From Schaalia sp. 19OD2882 (GTDB lineage: Bacteria; Actinomycetota; Actinomycetes; Actinomycetales; Actinomycetaceae): a stretch of DNA of 64,000 nt. Positions 1,580 to 60,779 of this stretch are shown here, in pieces. How positions within the stretch are numbered: position 1 is the stretch's first letter; each line of letters opens with the position of its first letter. A program made the position numbers and the translations under genes. Location: positions 2,356,001 to 2,420,000 of the forward strand of contig NZ_CP065521.1 of the NCBI RefSeq assembly GCF_018986735.1. The letters run 5' to 3'. The notes below the pieces were generated by a model that worked only from the letters and a program-made list of their open reading frames with translations, was not told the origin of the DNA and did no database searches.

Positions 1580-1684
1580 TCGCACACAATGTGCGCCACC
1601 ACAACCAGTTGTGGCGGGAGAAAATGGCAAATTCCCGCCTGTTCCAGCATCTTCTGTGCTCTGGGCCACCAGCATTGTGTGCGA
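1580..1684. repeat. inverted-repeat element, copy 1 (105 bp)
   Basis: Bounded by a perfect 12-bp inverted repeat, TCGCACACAATG (1580-1591) and CATTGTGTGCGA (1673-1684). The same ends, spacing and parts of the interior recur at 55713-55816 and 55871-55978. It lies between the glycosyltransferase start and the end of the pullulanase gene. The rest of 1345-1750 shows no convincing gene; a weak TATACA (revcomp at 1373-1378) could be the glycosyltransferase -10 box. Confidence 0.8.
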
Positions 1685-55712: not shown

Positions 55713-55816
55713 CGCACACAATGTGCTCCATCGGAGCCTCGGACCGTTGATGAGACTGGCAAGATTCCGGGCTTTCGGTGACGCACCTGCCCGGGTCACC
55801 GCCAGCATTGTGTGCG
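55713..55816. repeat. inverted-repeat element, copy 2 (104 bp)
   Basis: CGCACACAATG (55713-55723) and CATTGTGTGCG (55806-55816), perfect 11-bp ends. The interior shares CTGGCAAGATTCCGGGCTTT-like sequence with copy 3 and more weakly with copy 1. No coding sequence in 55659-56054. Confidence 0.8.
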
Positions 55817-55870
55817 AAAATCAGGGGTGGAGACTCCCCAGCCCAGCAGCACCTGTCCACCCACTTCGAT

Positions 55871-55978
55871 TCCGCACACAATGTGGGCCATCAACGCTGT
55901 GCCCCATTGACACCAGTGGCGAGATTTCAGGCTTCCGGGCACACGCCGCCCGAGGCCACTGACGGCATTGTGTGCGGA
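55871..55978. repeat. inverted-repeat element, copy 3 (108 bp)
   Basis: TCCGCACACAATG (55871-55883) and CATTGTGTGCGGA (55966-55978), perfect 13-bp ends, 54 bp after copy 2 and in the same orientation by interior similarity. Confidence 0.8.
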
Positions 55979-56054: not shown

Positions 56055-56912
56055 TCAGATTGACGGTGCCGGCATTGAGAGCGCATGTTCCCTCAGCGCC
56101 AGAACCTCTTGAACCAGGTTTCCAGCACCGAAGACGTCGTCATAGCTGAACCTGACGACCAGGTACCCCATTGCCGTCAGCTGCCTGTCGCGCCACATGT
56201 CGAGCTCCCGCTGCGCCCACGGCTGATGATGCTCTCGACCGTCGGTCTCCACGATCAGGCGATCGAAGACGACCATGTCCACTTCTCCCACGCCCGGGAT
56301 CTGCACTGCGACTCTCACTGCGATGCCGGCTTCTTCAAGTTGCATCCGCGCTGCTGTTTCGAGAATGGACCGGACTCCACGACGCGAGGCTTCCATGGCG
56401 CGGCGGATGCGCGAGGTGCCTGGCCCGCAGGGTGCCACAGTGATTCCCGACAGGTCACTGAGCCCTTTGAATCGTGCGGCATCCATCATGGCCACTGCTT
56501 CGACAGGGTCACAGCACACGGCCGCACGACGCAACGTCAAGTCAACACTGGCCAACCAAGGACGCAGCGGATCTTCCTCGATGGGGCCCCTTTCCCTGTG
56601 TACGCGCACGTCGTCGAGAAGCCTGTGGCGACTGATGTGCATGCCTCTGTGTGCCGACACGCTGATGTGAGTACGGGTGTCGTTGCCGTGCAATACGGGC
56701 AGACCGTGGATCACAGCGGCGCTGCGGCAGCTGACAAGGCCGTTGTAGACCTTGGCTCGAACTTCGTCCACTGACACGACATCTTGCAGGTAGAGCACAC
56801 CTCTGTAGACCTTCACCCATTCGGGCAGGTCTGCCAGAACCAGTCCTTGGGAGCGCAGGGAGGCGCGACTGGCAATGCCGCCTGCGGCCATGAGGTGCTT
56901 TCTGAGGTCCAT
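56055..56912 (-). CDS. AbiEi-like N-terminal plus DUF559/Vsr-like endonuclease-fold protein
   Basis: 285-aa protein. The N-terminal ~90 residues look like the winged-helix AbiEi antitoxin-type domain (GGIASRASLRSQGL ... VYRGVLYL). The C-terminal part resembles DUF559 nucleases: GVGEVDMVVFDRLIVETDGR, RDRQLTAMGYLVVRFSYDDV. Those Glu/Asp positions are the expected metal site. Such fusions are widespread in actinobacteria and their function is unclear (defence or DNA processing). Monocistronic, lower GC than flanks. Confidence 0.8.
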   Translation of the reverse strand: MDLRKHLMAAGGIASRASLRSQGLVLADLPEWVKVYRGVLYLQDVVSVDEVRAKVYNGLVSCRSAAVIHGLPVLHGNDTRTHISVSAHRGMHISRHRLLDDVRVHRERGPIEEDPLRPWLASVDLTLRRAAVCCDPVEAVAMMDAARFKGLSDLSGITVAPCGPGTSRIRRAMEASRRGVRSILETAARMQLEEAGIAVRVAVQIPGVGEVDMVVFDRLIVETDGREHHQPWAQRELDMWRDRQLTAMGYLVVRFSYDDVFGAGNLVQEVLALREHALSMPAPSI

Positions 56913-57024: not shown

Positions 57025-57456
57025 TCACTCCTTCGGCATGACCTCTCCGGTGACGGGAGGTTCGGGCTGGCCGGGCGTCCAGGTCGGAGTCTGCTGCGCA
57101 GAGCCTTCCTGCTGCGCGGGCTGGTCGGTGCGAACCACCTCGATGGTGACCTTGGAGACCAGGGCCGCAATGGCGCCCACCGCTGCCAGAACGGGCGCGG
57201 CCAGCACGGCGAGTCCGCCGACAACGGCTCCGGCGGTCATGGGGATGGAGAACAGTTCGGCGCCGGTGGCGTCACGCAGGATGATGCGTCGGACGTTGCC
57301 GTCGGCGATGAGCTGCTTGACGGTGGCGATCAGGTCGCTGCCAGCCACCTCGATCCACTCGACGAAGGTGCGGCCGCCGCCGGGCTGGCCGCCGCCGGCG
57401 CTCTGCTGGAACTGCGGTTGGGGCTGGGGCTGGGGTTGCGGGTTCGGTGTGCTCAT
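57025..57456 (-). CDS. DUF4342-like membrane-associated protein
   Basis: 143-aa protein. N-terminal PQ repeat (PQPQPQPQPQ), then the domain FVEWIEVAGSDLIATVKQLI, GNVRRIILRD and FSIPMTAGAV. One hydrophobic segment (VGGLAVLAAPVLAAVGAIAA) and a Gln/Pro tail follow. This matches the small DUF4342 family of unknown function found in Firmicutes and Actinobacteria. ATG 57456 has TGGAGG. Confidence 0.8.
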   Translation of the reverse strand: MSTPNPQPQPQPQPQFQQSAGGGQPGGGRTFVEWIEVAGSDLIATVKQLIADGNVRRIILRDATGAELFSIPMTAGAVVGGLAVLAAPVLAAVGAIAALVSKVTIEVVRTDQPAQQEGSAQQTPTWTPGQPEPPVTGEVMPKE

Positions 57457-57596
57457 GCCTCCAGTTTCCATCGACGAGGACGCCGCCGCCATCAGGGTCT
57501 CCCCCGGTTCAACCCCGGCGTTCCTGCCAACAGACTCCCACAACTCGGGCCACCCATACCCCAGGTGATGTAGGACCCTCTGGTTACGATCCACGG

Positions 57597-60500
57597 GTGA
57601 CAACGGAGCTGAAGCTGATGCCAGGTGTCTATCAGACACCCTTGACTCGCCGCATGGACGCGGCAATCCGAGCCAACACCCAGTTGACTGCCGGAACTGA
57701 TGAGATCCCCACGCCACTGCTGCCCGCCAGCCTGACCCACCTGGTATCAACGGAACTCAAGCAGGCGCTTGCAGTGCTGTCTCCACAAGACCAGGTCGCG
57801 TTGGTGAACCGCCTTCTCGCCATGCTTCCACCTACTGCGATTGGTACGACCGAAGATCTGGCACTGGTCACCTCTGCAAAGCAACCTGCATTGGAGCTCC
57901 GGTCACTGACAGATGATCCTCTTCGAGAAGCCCCACGGCACCCATGGATTCGCCTCACTGACGCAGCTCTCATCACGAACGCTCCGACTGAACCGGCACT
58001 TGCCCACATCCTCCGTGATGAGCTTGCAACCGCAGATCGCGTGGACTTGCTGTGCGCATTCGTTAAGTGGTCTGGCATGCGACTCCTCAGTGAGGCTTTC
58101 GCCGAGCTTCGCGATCGAGATGTACCGTTCCGAATCCTTACCACGACATATATGGGCGCGACTGAACGGCGAGCCCTGGAAACTCTCGCACGCAAGTATC
58201 GAGCTCAGATCAAGATCAGTTACGACATTGCAGCCACTCGGTTGCACGCAAAGTCGTGGATCTTGCACCGAAATTCAGGATTCGACACTGCCTTCGTTGG
58301 CTCCTCAAACCTGTCACGTGCGGCAATGCTCGACGGACTGGAGTGGAACGTGCGGATAGCCTCCTCTACCACTCCGGACCTGTTCCAGAAGCTCACTCAG
58401 ACCTTCGAAAGTTACTGGCATCGCCCTGTCTTCGAAGAGTACGACCCTGAGCAAGACGCAGATCGACTAGACCAGAGCCTTCAGTCGGCGAATGGCCACG
58501 GTGATGTGCTCGACCTTGATACGAGTTTCCTTGCGATCGAGCCGCAGCCCCATCAACGCATCATGCTCGCCGACCTTGCCCACGAGCGCCAACAGGGACG
58601 TCACCGTAACCTTGTCGTGGCAGCCACCGGGACTGGGAAGACCGTCCTTGCGGCGCTGGACTATCGCGCACTGTGTGGTGGAACTCCTCACAAACGGTCA
58701 CTCCTCTTCGTCGCTCACCGCAAAGAGATTCTCCAGCAAGCGCGCGCCACCTACCGGCGCGTGCTCGCAGACTCCACCTTTGGAGAACTTCTGATCGACG
58801 GCCGACAACCGAACAGGTGGAAGCACGTTTTTGCCTCTGTCCAGTCGCTGACCGAAGGCATGCTCAAGAAGCTTCGTTCCAACCTCTTCGACATCATGGT
58901 CATCGACGAATTCCATCACGCGGAAGCACCCACCTATCAACGAATACTTAAGCACTTCCATCCCCAGGAGTTGCTTGGCCTAACTGCCACCCCGGAACGC
59001 GCCGACGGAGTGGACGTAGCCTCCCGCTTCTTTGAAGGGCGCGTGGCGTCTGAACTTCGCCTTTGGGATGCACTCGAGGGTGACCTACTTGTCCCATTCC
59101 ATTACTTCGGGATCTCTGACAGCTCGGACCTCCGTGAATTGGACTTCCGCCGAGGCAGCTACGACGTGGAGCAGCTTGAGAAGCTCTATCTTGAGAACGA
59201 CGCACGATCTGAGCTGATCCTCAAGGCGATCGAAGAGCACATCGCAACGCCCCAACACATGCGCGCGTTGGCGTTCTGCGTCAGCGTGAAACACGCCAAG
59301 TACATGTCCCATGTCCTCAACCGTGCCGGACTGAGGTCCACACACCTCAATGGAACCACTGGGCCGGGGGAGCGTGAACGTGCCCTGGCAGATCTTCGCT
59401 GTGGCAGGCTTGCGTGCATCTGCACCGTCGACCTGTTCAACGAAGGGCTTGACATCCCTTCCATCGACACCATCCTGATGCTTCGCCCCACTCAGTCAGC
59501 CACGATCTTCCTCCAGCAACTTGGACGCGGTCTACGTAGAGCGCCCGAAAAGAGCGTTCTCACGGTTCTCGACTTCGTGGGCCACCAGAGTCAACAGTTC
59601 TCCTTTGAGCCGAAATTCCGAGCATTGACGGGCCTCGGACGAAAGGCGCTGTTGGAGGCAGCAGAGCAGGGCTTCCCGCAGCTTCCGCCTGGTTGCGGTA
59701 TCCACCTTGATCGGGTAGCTCAAAAGATCGTGCTGAATAACATTCGAGCACAGACTGTCGTGCGCCTACCTCAACTCGCACAAGATCTCCGTAACTACGC
59801 GAACAGAAGCGGTGATCCCACGAACTACTCACTGACCCGCTGGCTCATTGAAATGGATGCTGACCTATCCATACTCTACGGGCGGACCTACCAAAGCAAA
59901 CCTCTCGACTGGGAGCGCATCCGCCACCTTGCGCTCCTCACACCCAGCATCGGCGAATCACCAACTGCCATTCATCTACGCTCACGAGTCCGTGTCTTCG
60001 CCCATGTGAACGACCCATTGCGTGCCGGCCTGTATTCAGCACTTGCCCTGGGAACATGTGGCTCGATAGCCGACTGGTCAGCCGAGCAGAGAAGCGCAGC
60101 TCACATGCTCTTCTACAACATCTGGCCTGATCGAAAGAACCCTGAAACTGGCGCTCGTTTCTCGAGTCTTGAAGAAGGCCTCAGCTTACTGCATCACCAT
60201 CGGTGGTTCGGCGAGCAAATCAGCGAGGTGATGGCCCACACGGTGGCCCGATCACGTTCGGTTTTCGGCGAGCCGGGTGGCAACCTTTCCGACACGGTGC
60301 TGCTGACTCATGCGGCCTATCGCCGCGAGGAGTTGCTGGCTGGAGTGGGACTTGGCGAGGACTTCGCAGCTTCGTCAGTGCCGGGCACCGTTCGCGAAGG
60401 CGTCTACTTTCAGCCAAGGCGAAGTGTCGACGCGCTCATGGTCAACCTCCACAAGGACTCAGCGAAGTTCTCTGAGTCCACCCGGTACCAGGATTACGCC

Positions 60501-60779
60501 CTGACGGAGGACCTCTTCCACTGGCAGTCGCAGAATCAAACGAGCCCGGAGTCAGCAACCGGACTGCGCTACCAAGGCCTGTCGGGCGTCGCCTCAGACA
60601 TTGCGCTCTTCGTTCGCGCAGATGAGACCGATGAGTTCGGCAAGGGCGCTCCGTACACCTTCCTAGGACTAGCGGACTTCGTGTCGACTCACGGCACACG
60701 CCCCATGTCAATCACCTGGCACTTGCGAACCCCGATGCCTCAAGAGCTCTACCTTGAAGCCCGAGCTGCGGCTTCGTAA
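57597..60779 (+). CDS. PLD nuclease - superfamily 2 helicase - DUF3427-like protein
   Basis: 1060-aa multidomain protein. N-terminal region, then a phospholipase-D-type nuclease half-site (HAKSWILHR ~215, GSSNLS ~234). An SF2 helicase follows, with Walker A ATGTGKT (~342), DEFHH (~436), LTATPER, and C-lobe motifs LFNEGLDIP and QLGRGLRR (~640). The rest is a ~350-residue C-terminal domain like DUF3427 (YQGLSG..SDIALFVR). Such proteins are thought to act on foreign or damaged DNA and turn up in defence contexts; this role is inferred. Lower GC than neighbours suggests transfer. GTG 57597 is likely; ribosome site weak; ATG 57618 is an alternative. Confidence 0.85.
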   Translation: MTTELKLMPGVYQTPLTRRMDAAIRANTQLTAGTDEIPTPLLPASLTHLVSTELKQALAVLSPQDQVALVNRLLAMLPPTAIGTTEDLALVTSAKQPALELRSLTDDPLREAPRHPWIRLTDAALITNAPTEPALAHILRDELATADRVDLLCAFVKWSGMRLLSEAFAELRDRDVPFRILTTTYMGATERRALETLARKYRAQIKISYDIAATRLHAKSWILHRNSGFDTAFVGSSNLSRAAMLDGLEWNVRIASSTTPDLFQKLTQTFESYWHRPVFEEYDPEQDADRLDQSLQSANGHGDVLDLDTSFLAIEPQPHQRIMLADLAHERQQGRHRNLVVAATGTGKTVLAALDYRALCGGTPHKRSLLFVAHRKEILQQARATYRRVLADSTFGELLIDGRQPNRWKHVFASVQSLTEGMLKKLRSNLFDIMVIDEFHHAEAPTYQRILKHFHPQELLGLTATPERADGVDVASRFFEGRVASELRLWDALEGDLLVPFHYFGISDSSDLRELDFRRGSYDVEQLEKLYLENDARSELILKAIEEHIATPQHMRALAFCVSVKHAKYMSHVLNRAGLRSTHLNGTTGPGERERALADLRCGRLACICTVDLFNEGLDIPSIDTILMLRPTQSATIFLQQLGRGLRRAPEKSVLTVLDFVGHQSQQFSFEPKFRALTGLGRKALLEAAEQGFPQLPPGCGIHLDRVAQKIVLNNIRAQTVVRLPQLAQDLRNYANRSGDPTNYSLTRWLIEMDADLSILYGRTYQSKPLDWERIRHLALLTPSIGESPTAIHLRSRVRVFAHVNDPLRAGLYSALALGTCGSIADWSAEQRSAAHMLFYNIWPDRKNPETGARFSSLEEGLSLLHHHRWFGEQISEVMAHTVARSRSVFGEPGGNLSDTVLLTHAAYRREELLAGVGLGEDFAASSVPGTVREGVYFQPRRSVDALMVNLHKDSAKFSESTRYQDYALTEDLFHWQSQNQTSPESATGLRYQGLSGVASDIALFVRADETDEFGKGAPYTFLGLADFVSTHGTRPMSITWHLRTPMPQELYLEARAAAS

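Follow-up and report, generated by a model that had tools for sequence, protein, structure and literature searches.

The window examined here is a stretch of 64,000 nucleotides from the single 2.56-Mb contig of Schaalia sp. 19OD2882 (positions 2356001-2420000; this host genome is called G000 below, and other genomes carry G numbers likewise). It contains three copies of an inverted-repeat element of about 105 bp, which appears to be the partner of an adjoining gene for a DNA-cutting enzyme. The association of such elements with relatives of this nuclease is strong and has several bases: partial bracketing of the nuclease family by elements, ends that track the nuclease lineage, a fixed spacing, co-occurrence, conservation in place and the predicted fold of the protein. 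Our interpretation is that a Vsr-type nuclease, for which we infer binding, cutting and movement, maintains a population of REPIN-like repeats. Element and gene are probably two parts of one genetic system, in which the nuclease would recognise and cut the ends and spread the copies.

The three copies lie where the original prediction had placed them, with perfect 11-bp ends (CGCACACAATG/CATTGTGTGCG); in the third, the core of which spans 55873-55976, the arms reach 13 bp (Table 1). Elements B and C stand in tandem with a period of 160 bp. Ends with at most one mismatch occurred 7 times in the window, versus 1.57 expected, and none of 100 shuffles gave seven or more. A search of G000 for exact end pairs (82-112 bp overall) yielded 13, and the reversed-pattern control yielded none. 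When mismatched ends were allowed, 27 end pairings were detected, and removal of three overlapping alternatives left at least 24 elements, 23 of them 101-105 bp long and one 81 bp; this number is a lower bound, the stretches around end matches having been examined and lone one-mismatch ends covered incompletely. Four exact ends in G000 were unpaired, with no element within 130 bp on either side (longer elements were not searched for).

By their interiors, the 24 elements form two classes of 14 (class 1) and 10 (class 2) copies, both orientations being present in each. The best match to GAAAGTGGCCGGATTCCGGGCTTTC begins at offset 39 in all 14 class-1 copies (15-24 of 25 letters), and their central motif GAAAGTGGCNNGATTCCGGGCTTTC likewise has the same offset in 14/14; in class 2 the central motif, around CGCAGGTCA, is found at offset 43 in 8 of the 10. 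Model R1 was made from the 14 class-1 copies and alignment A2 from 8 of the 10 class-2 copies. Element A scored 86.8 bits against R1, copy A itself being part of the model build. That the element lies only between genes, as had been claimed, held for 22 of the 24 with a rough gene caller and failed for the 81-bp copy and the copy at 2530265, which are within predicted open reading frames (ORFs); the caller is crude and overlooked the nuclease gene too, and these counts are a guide only. We also found, at G000:C1:694949-695030 (L050:950-1031), a class-1 interior (model positions 20-101, E 3.9e-8) lacking any ends that could be recognised, probably a decayed element, and, at G000:C1:408068 (L048:4069 onward), direct repeats around GACGAATCTC adjoining a single exact end match.

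The original prediction had noted that no transposase is nearby. This was not contradicted, but a nuclease gene is: its stop codon and the arm of element C are 76 bp apart. For the nuclease, Pfam gave a match to DUF559 (E 2.6e-8) and one below the cut-off to MTES_1575, a Vsr-type nuclease domain (the name is explained in PMC3710099). Over residues ~180-279, an AlphaFold model (pLDDT 86, six sequences) matched Vsr, 3hrl and the I-Bth0305I homing endonuclease domain; over residues 1-177 it matched, less firmly, the AbiEi antitoxin. All 15 aligned relatives share residues E222, D224 and D238, and H229 is almost invariant; the predicted Vsr/EDxHD nuclease fold is accompanied by conserved acidic and histidine residues. 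NCBIfam contained no family for the nuclease, and PADLOC yielded no more than a weak match of the G011 protein to a homing endonuclease (E 0.003).

Table 1. Element copies and candidate partner gene in the window
Feature	Position	Strand	Details
Element A, class 1, 103 bp	1581..1683	+	ends 1581-1591, 1673-1683; central motif ~1620-1644
Element B, class 1, 104 bp	55713..55816	+	ends 55713-55723, 55806-55816; central motif ~55752-55776
Element C, class 1, 108 bp, 13-bp arms	55871..55978	+	core ends 55873-55883, 55966-55976; central motif ~55912-55936
Candidate partner gene, 285 aa (amino acids)	56055..56912	-	AbiEi-like ~1-177; Vsr/I-Bth0305I-like nuclease ~180-280 (Pfam DUF559)

Full-length relatives of the nuclease (E <1e-50) were present in 12 of 35 genomes of the genus, one in each, and weaker ones in G033, G020 and G000; at E 1e-40 the nuclease was found in 61 of 213 genomes of the family, genus included. 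Protein relatives with a species name belong to Schaalia vaccimaxillae and Actinomyces faecalis. In G011, the gene between two elements in the region compared below is a homologue of the window ORF 56055-56912 (42% identity); element-rich genomes possess this gene, whereas at E 1e-10 no relative was detected in G025, G028, G031 or G034.

Further copies of the element, which the original prediction needed, are present in the host genome and, up to 86 per genome, in others of the genus. They differ in their ends: copies of the exact G000 type were not found in 57 other genomes (34 of the same genus), and a class-1 covariance model recovered full-length elements bearing other ends in same-genus genomes. 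A more general pattern (CGCAYRYAA and its inverse, 70-92 bp) had matches in 13 of the 35 genus genomes: G006 (34), G010 (83), G011 (86), G012 (68), G019 (51), G021 (26), G022 (37) and G023 (75), and in smaller number G000 (15), G025 (3), G028 (11), G031 (2) and G034 (13). The reversed pattern gave 0 in genus genomes and 1 each in two other genomes. Many same-genus genomes showed none of the element types searched for. A wider contig collection, which may lack the window's own genome, yielded one 97-bp match when searched with the G000 ends; it lies in a Wildermuthbacteria metagenome-assembled genome and is probably due to chance. Viral contigs yielded none. Eleven genomes combined a full-length nuclease with at least 15 element copies, and there was a single exception in either direction; since the genomes are related, these counts are not independent.

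Some observations in more distant genomes stand apart. The 15 pattern matches in G105, from another family of the order, were not counted, as all but one belonged to another palindrome, 28 bp long, that shares the CGCACGTAA half. This palindrome, CGCACGTAAGCCAGTTACGTTACGTGCGG, is repeated with variants on contig C2 (L111, L114, L116-L118) and is built from the CGCACGTAA half as in some G011-type ends. An element with ends GACCACAAAG was found in another genus (G063:C1:686945-687064, L075); G063 has two nucleases, and the element beside one of them (L213) has ends differing from GACCACAAAG.

Gene and element are linked by bracketing. Among 35 nuclease genes (15 genus loci, 17 family loci and 3 further genes in G140), 14 were flanked on both sides by elements with a common end, compared with 7 of 3000 controls, four of which were at G140's two bracketed nucleases and two in the element-dense locus L140. 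An earlier test with 15-bp ends, which was too strict, gave 10 of 35 and 0 of at most 600 controls; the final rule was chosen afterwards. The best-scoring 17 loci of other genera had elements on both sides in 4 cases (G140, G120, G143, G228) and on one side in several. No two-sided bracket was found for 21 of the 35 genes. The nuclease gene of the window is outside the 14, having elements B and C on one side only.

The bracketing ends were CGCACACAGTTTC in G013 and G020, AGACACAGTCGT in G004, CGCACACAAGG in G006, CGCACGTAATTCC or CGCATGCAATTCC in the G011 group and GCACAGAAT in G033. Nuclease identity correlated with end similarity, though there were exceptions; for example, the two bracketed nucleases of G140 are 79% identical, yet have different ends. 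If the brackets reveal the end code, dispersed copies with ACACAGT ends would be expected in G013, G004 and G020, all of them without matches to the first pattern. A second pattern with these ends, derived from nuclease carriers, had 25 matches in G013, 25 in G004 and 18 in G020, brackets counted in, with a reversed control of 0; elsewhere there were 2 in G000 (one beside the second nuclease), 1 in G024, 1 in G026 and none in the other 29. Several ACACAGT-end copies carried known centres (CGTTGGAATT..CAACG, CGCAGGTCA and CCGCATGATTTCAACG, identified by eye). In 398 kb sampled from G140, three dispersed copies with 1-2 end mismatches were found beyond the bracket pair.

The second, weaker nuclease relative of G000 (G000:C1:1246651-1247274, L201) has an element of another type, with ends GACACACAGTGG, on one side (L201:2356-2472), and a single dispersed element with ACACAGTGG ends is located at G000:C1:2217944-2218040. 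In G020, the nuclease gene (C3:906740-907579; other element ends) sits in the counterpart (C3:897763-909044, L186) of the G011 nuclease region.

We analysed the ends further in G011 (single contig), where 116 end pairs at 60-140 bp were found in 420 kb and the 89 elements of 102-105 bp were retained. The triplets within the two ends of an element agreed: TGC with TGC in 49 and CGT with CGT in 29, as opposed to TGC with CGT in 1 and other combinations in 10. TGT/TGT and CGC/CGC were absent among the 89, which indicates that the triplet switches as a unit and not pair by pair; agreement of the triplets would suit a single complex that reads the two ends. Various combinations of arm types, centres and ends occurred, though not independently; for instance, right arms with TGACC were joined to CGT ends in 20 cases and to TGC ends in 7 (crude classes). 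By eye, G006 and G021 have a centre that is an inverted pair of the end motif (13-8-13), making 34+34+34 bp. Ends were matched in 79 of 85 elements of G011 versus 21 of 28 in four element-poor genomes without the nuclease (P 0.017); this is a hand tally with one 88-bp chance-like match left out, and we gave it no weight. The spacers of G011 also contain further stretches of ~80-160 bp beside elements (L136-L175 flanks) that recur at distant places.

An 18-kb region of G011 was set against the corresponding regions of ten other genomes. Elements were found at corresponding places in G012, G023, G019, G022 and G010; a single one turned up in the G025 counterpart and none in those of G034, G028 and G031. 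From 26 candidate orthologous pairs, the 19 with an interior identity of at least 0.7 were used, and they showed 84% identity in the interior and 91% in the ends, compared with 67% in flanks at 0-20 bp, 48% in flanks at 20-70 bp and 33% in random alignments; 4-fold sites of neighbouring genes were 76-81% identical in the five genomes concerned. The 36 ends of the 18 pairs used for end analysis had mismatches only at positions 5 (16), 7 (16) and 8 (1). Thus, the ends are held fixed apart from the triplet, while the flanks decay. In 7 of the 18 pairs the triplet had switched jointly at the two ends; orthology is clear for 3 of the 7 (148621-G012, 159209-G019 and 159209-G022), and the other 4 may be paralogues.

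The check for empty sites and target duplications that had been proposed showed presence and absence between genomes, but in spacers too diverged to place element boundaries, and no flanking repeat was noticed by eye. Because the element is multicopy, patchy in relatives and absent from corresponding spacers of some of them, its mobile, repeat-like nature is supported. The original prediction had offered a MITE (miniature inverted-repeat transposable element), a structured RNA or a protein-binding boundary element; of these, mobility and protein binding agree with the data, with a candidate binder adjacent, and the RNA is not supported.

Conservation in place is compatible with regulation and with service to the host. 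The protein could be mainly a DNA-binding regulator, like the AbiEi antitoxins, for which bracketing elements would serve as operators or terminators; dispersed copies would then regulate other genes, and the nuclease domain would be secondary. The AbiEi-like N-terminal fold predicted by the model would suit such a role, as do ends and interior conserved across species and the ordinary genes flanked by elements. However, predicted genes flanking G000 elements are convergent, divergent or co-directional without evident promoter preference (rough gene calls), the nuclease residues listed above hardly vary, and copy numbers up to 86 with patchy presence fit poorly; we regard this explanation as unlikely. 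The elements might also be sites of DNA processing or chromosome organisation (loop anchors, or marks for replication or repair) that a domesticated nuclease serves, with spread rare or past. Besides conservation in place, a strong clustering of the G011 copies on the circle around ~107 kb favours this (Rayleigh R 0.51, P ~3e-9; 75 positions, close neighbours merged by hand), whereas G000 shows no such clustering (21 positions, R 0.22, P 0.36) and many genomes of the genus showed no element of the types searched for; we consider host benefit less likely still.

An ordinary MITE of an undetected DDE transposase, with the nuclease genes as hitch-hiking neighbours, would account for the inverted ends, near-constant length, dispersed copies and presence or absence between relatives. 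It is improbable, since no target-site duplication was noticed by eye, interiors are highly divergent among copies of one genome while ends are conserved in place, and bracketing and end-tracking would have to be coincidence, which is hard to reconcile. A structured RNA family is very improbable indeed: only the matched G011 triplets could equally be explained by a stem, and these switch as a block, while folding, RNAalifold (outer stem only in the 89 G011 elements), pair counts (no position of the 11-bp arms changed on both sides in the 14 class-1 G000 copies) and Rfam (no match on elements, with the window at gathering score and 17 loci at E <=5; tRNAs and sub-threshold matches elsewhere) supported no interior structure. 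The arm changes in these 14 copies, which affect one side only or lose the pair, are as expected from separate recognition of two DNA ends and not from a stem.

Correia and RUP elements are dispersed, intergenic MITEs of ~100 bp with terminal inverted repeats. The present element is like them in length, terminal inverted repeats, presence in many copies, intergenic location and dispersal, but differs in that no target-site duplication was resolved, no cognate transposase was seen (no genome-wide search for one between these ends was made) and the matched neighbour is a nuclease gene. Homing enzymes are encoded in introns, in inteins or beside one target. The nuclease is unlike EDxHD/Vsr-like homing endonucleases (I-Bth0305I, PDB 3r3p) in that several related genes lie between palindromes that are also found dispersed, and unlike AbiEi antitoxins (PDB 6y8q) in that the window protein carries an attached nuclease domain.

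REPIN-RAYT systems combine REP doublets with REP-associated tyrosine transposases (PMC3116915, PMC8049555), and the foot of the REP palindrome is described as carrying a GTAG/CGTC tag (PMC3733652). Measured against these descriptions, the present system is similar in its paired inverted ends, near-constant spacer and conserved ends with a looser interior, in its many extragenic copies, tandem clusters and more than one end flavour per genome, and in that matching repeats adjoin an enzyme gene and genomes lacking the enzyme hold fewer copies. It is unlike them in its candidate enzyme, a Vsr-like nuclease with an AbiEi-like domain rather than a Y1 tyrosine transposase, and in central motifs common to elements across genomes with different ends. 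The Y1/RAYT transposase PF01797 was detected in 0 of 35 genus genomes (E 0.001), while 5 of 14 control genomes were positive. The system is therefore REPIN-like in organisation, and not a REPIN-RAYT system.

Two further points concern the surroundings. Near-identical direct pairs in G010, considered as gene cassettes, were dropped, being duplicated segments of at most 928 bp on contigs with ambiguous bases and probably assembly artefacts. Past the nuclease gene, the window contains a 1110-aa ORF (57447-60779, +) that by eye is helicase-like and whose N-terminal region resembles phospholipase D.

AbiEi antitoxins bind inverted repeats. By analogy, the AbiEi-like half of the protein would recognise the element by its inverted ends, perhaps by its centre too, and a dimer or higher oligomer would probably bring both ends together. 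The Vsr/homing-endonuclease-like half would then cut at the ends, and repair or re-insertion after the cut would give copies at new intergenic sites. A nuclease gene bracketed by two elements could be moved or preserved as well, and the dispersed elements would be a non-autonomous population. The system would operate like REPIN-RAYT, with an unrelated enzyme whose cutting would spread the element.

That no family with these ends has been described, as the original prediction had supposed, held in open-access searches, which turned up nothing recognisable on these elements or on DUF559 with palindromic repeats. We consider it an even question whether this is an undescribed class of repeat and enzyme, in which Vsr-type nucleases with AbiEi-like domains spread and maintain populations of ~100-bp palindromic elements, with a lineage-specific end code, a shared centre and co-evolution as matched pairs. 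If true, it would be a second, enzymatically unrelated solution to the role of REPIN-RAYT. The DUF559 family, known only as a domain of unknown function, gains a concrete and testable partner and target. As enzyme/end pairs form a natural series, with two in one genome, recognition can be tested directly, and such a test bears on why bacteria keep repeat populations of this kind.
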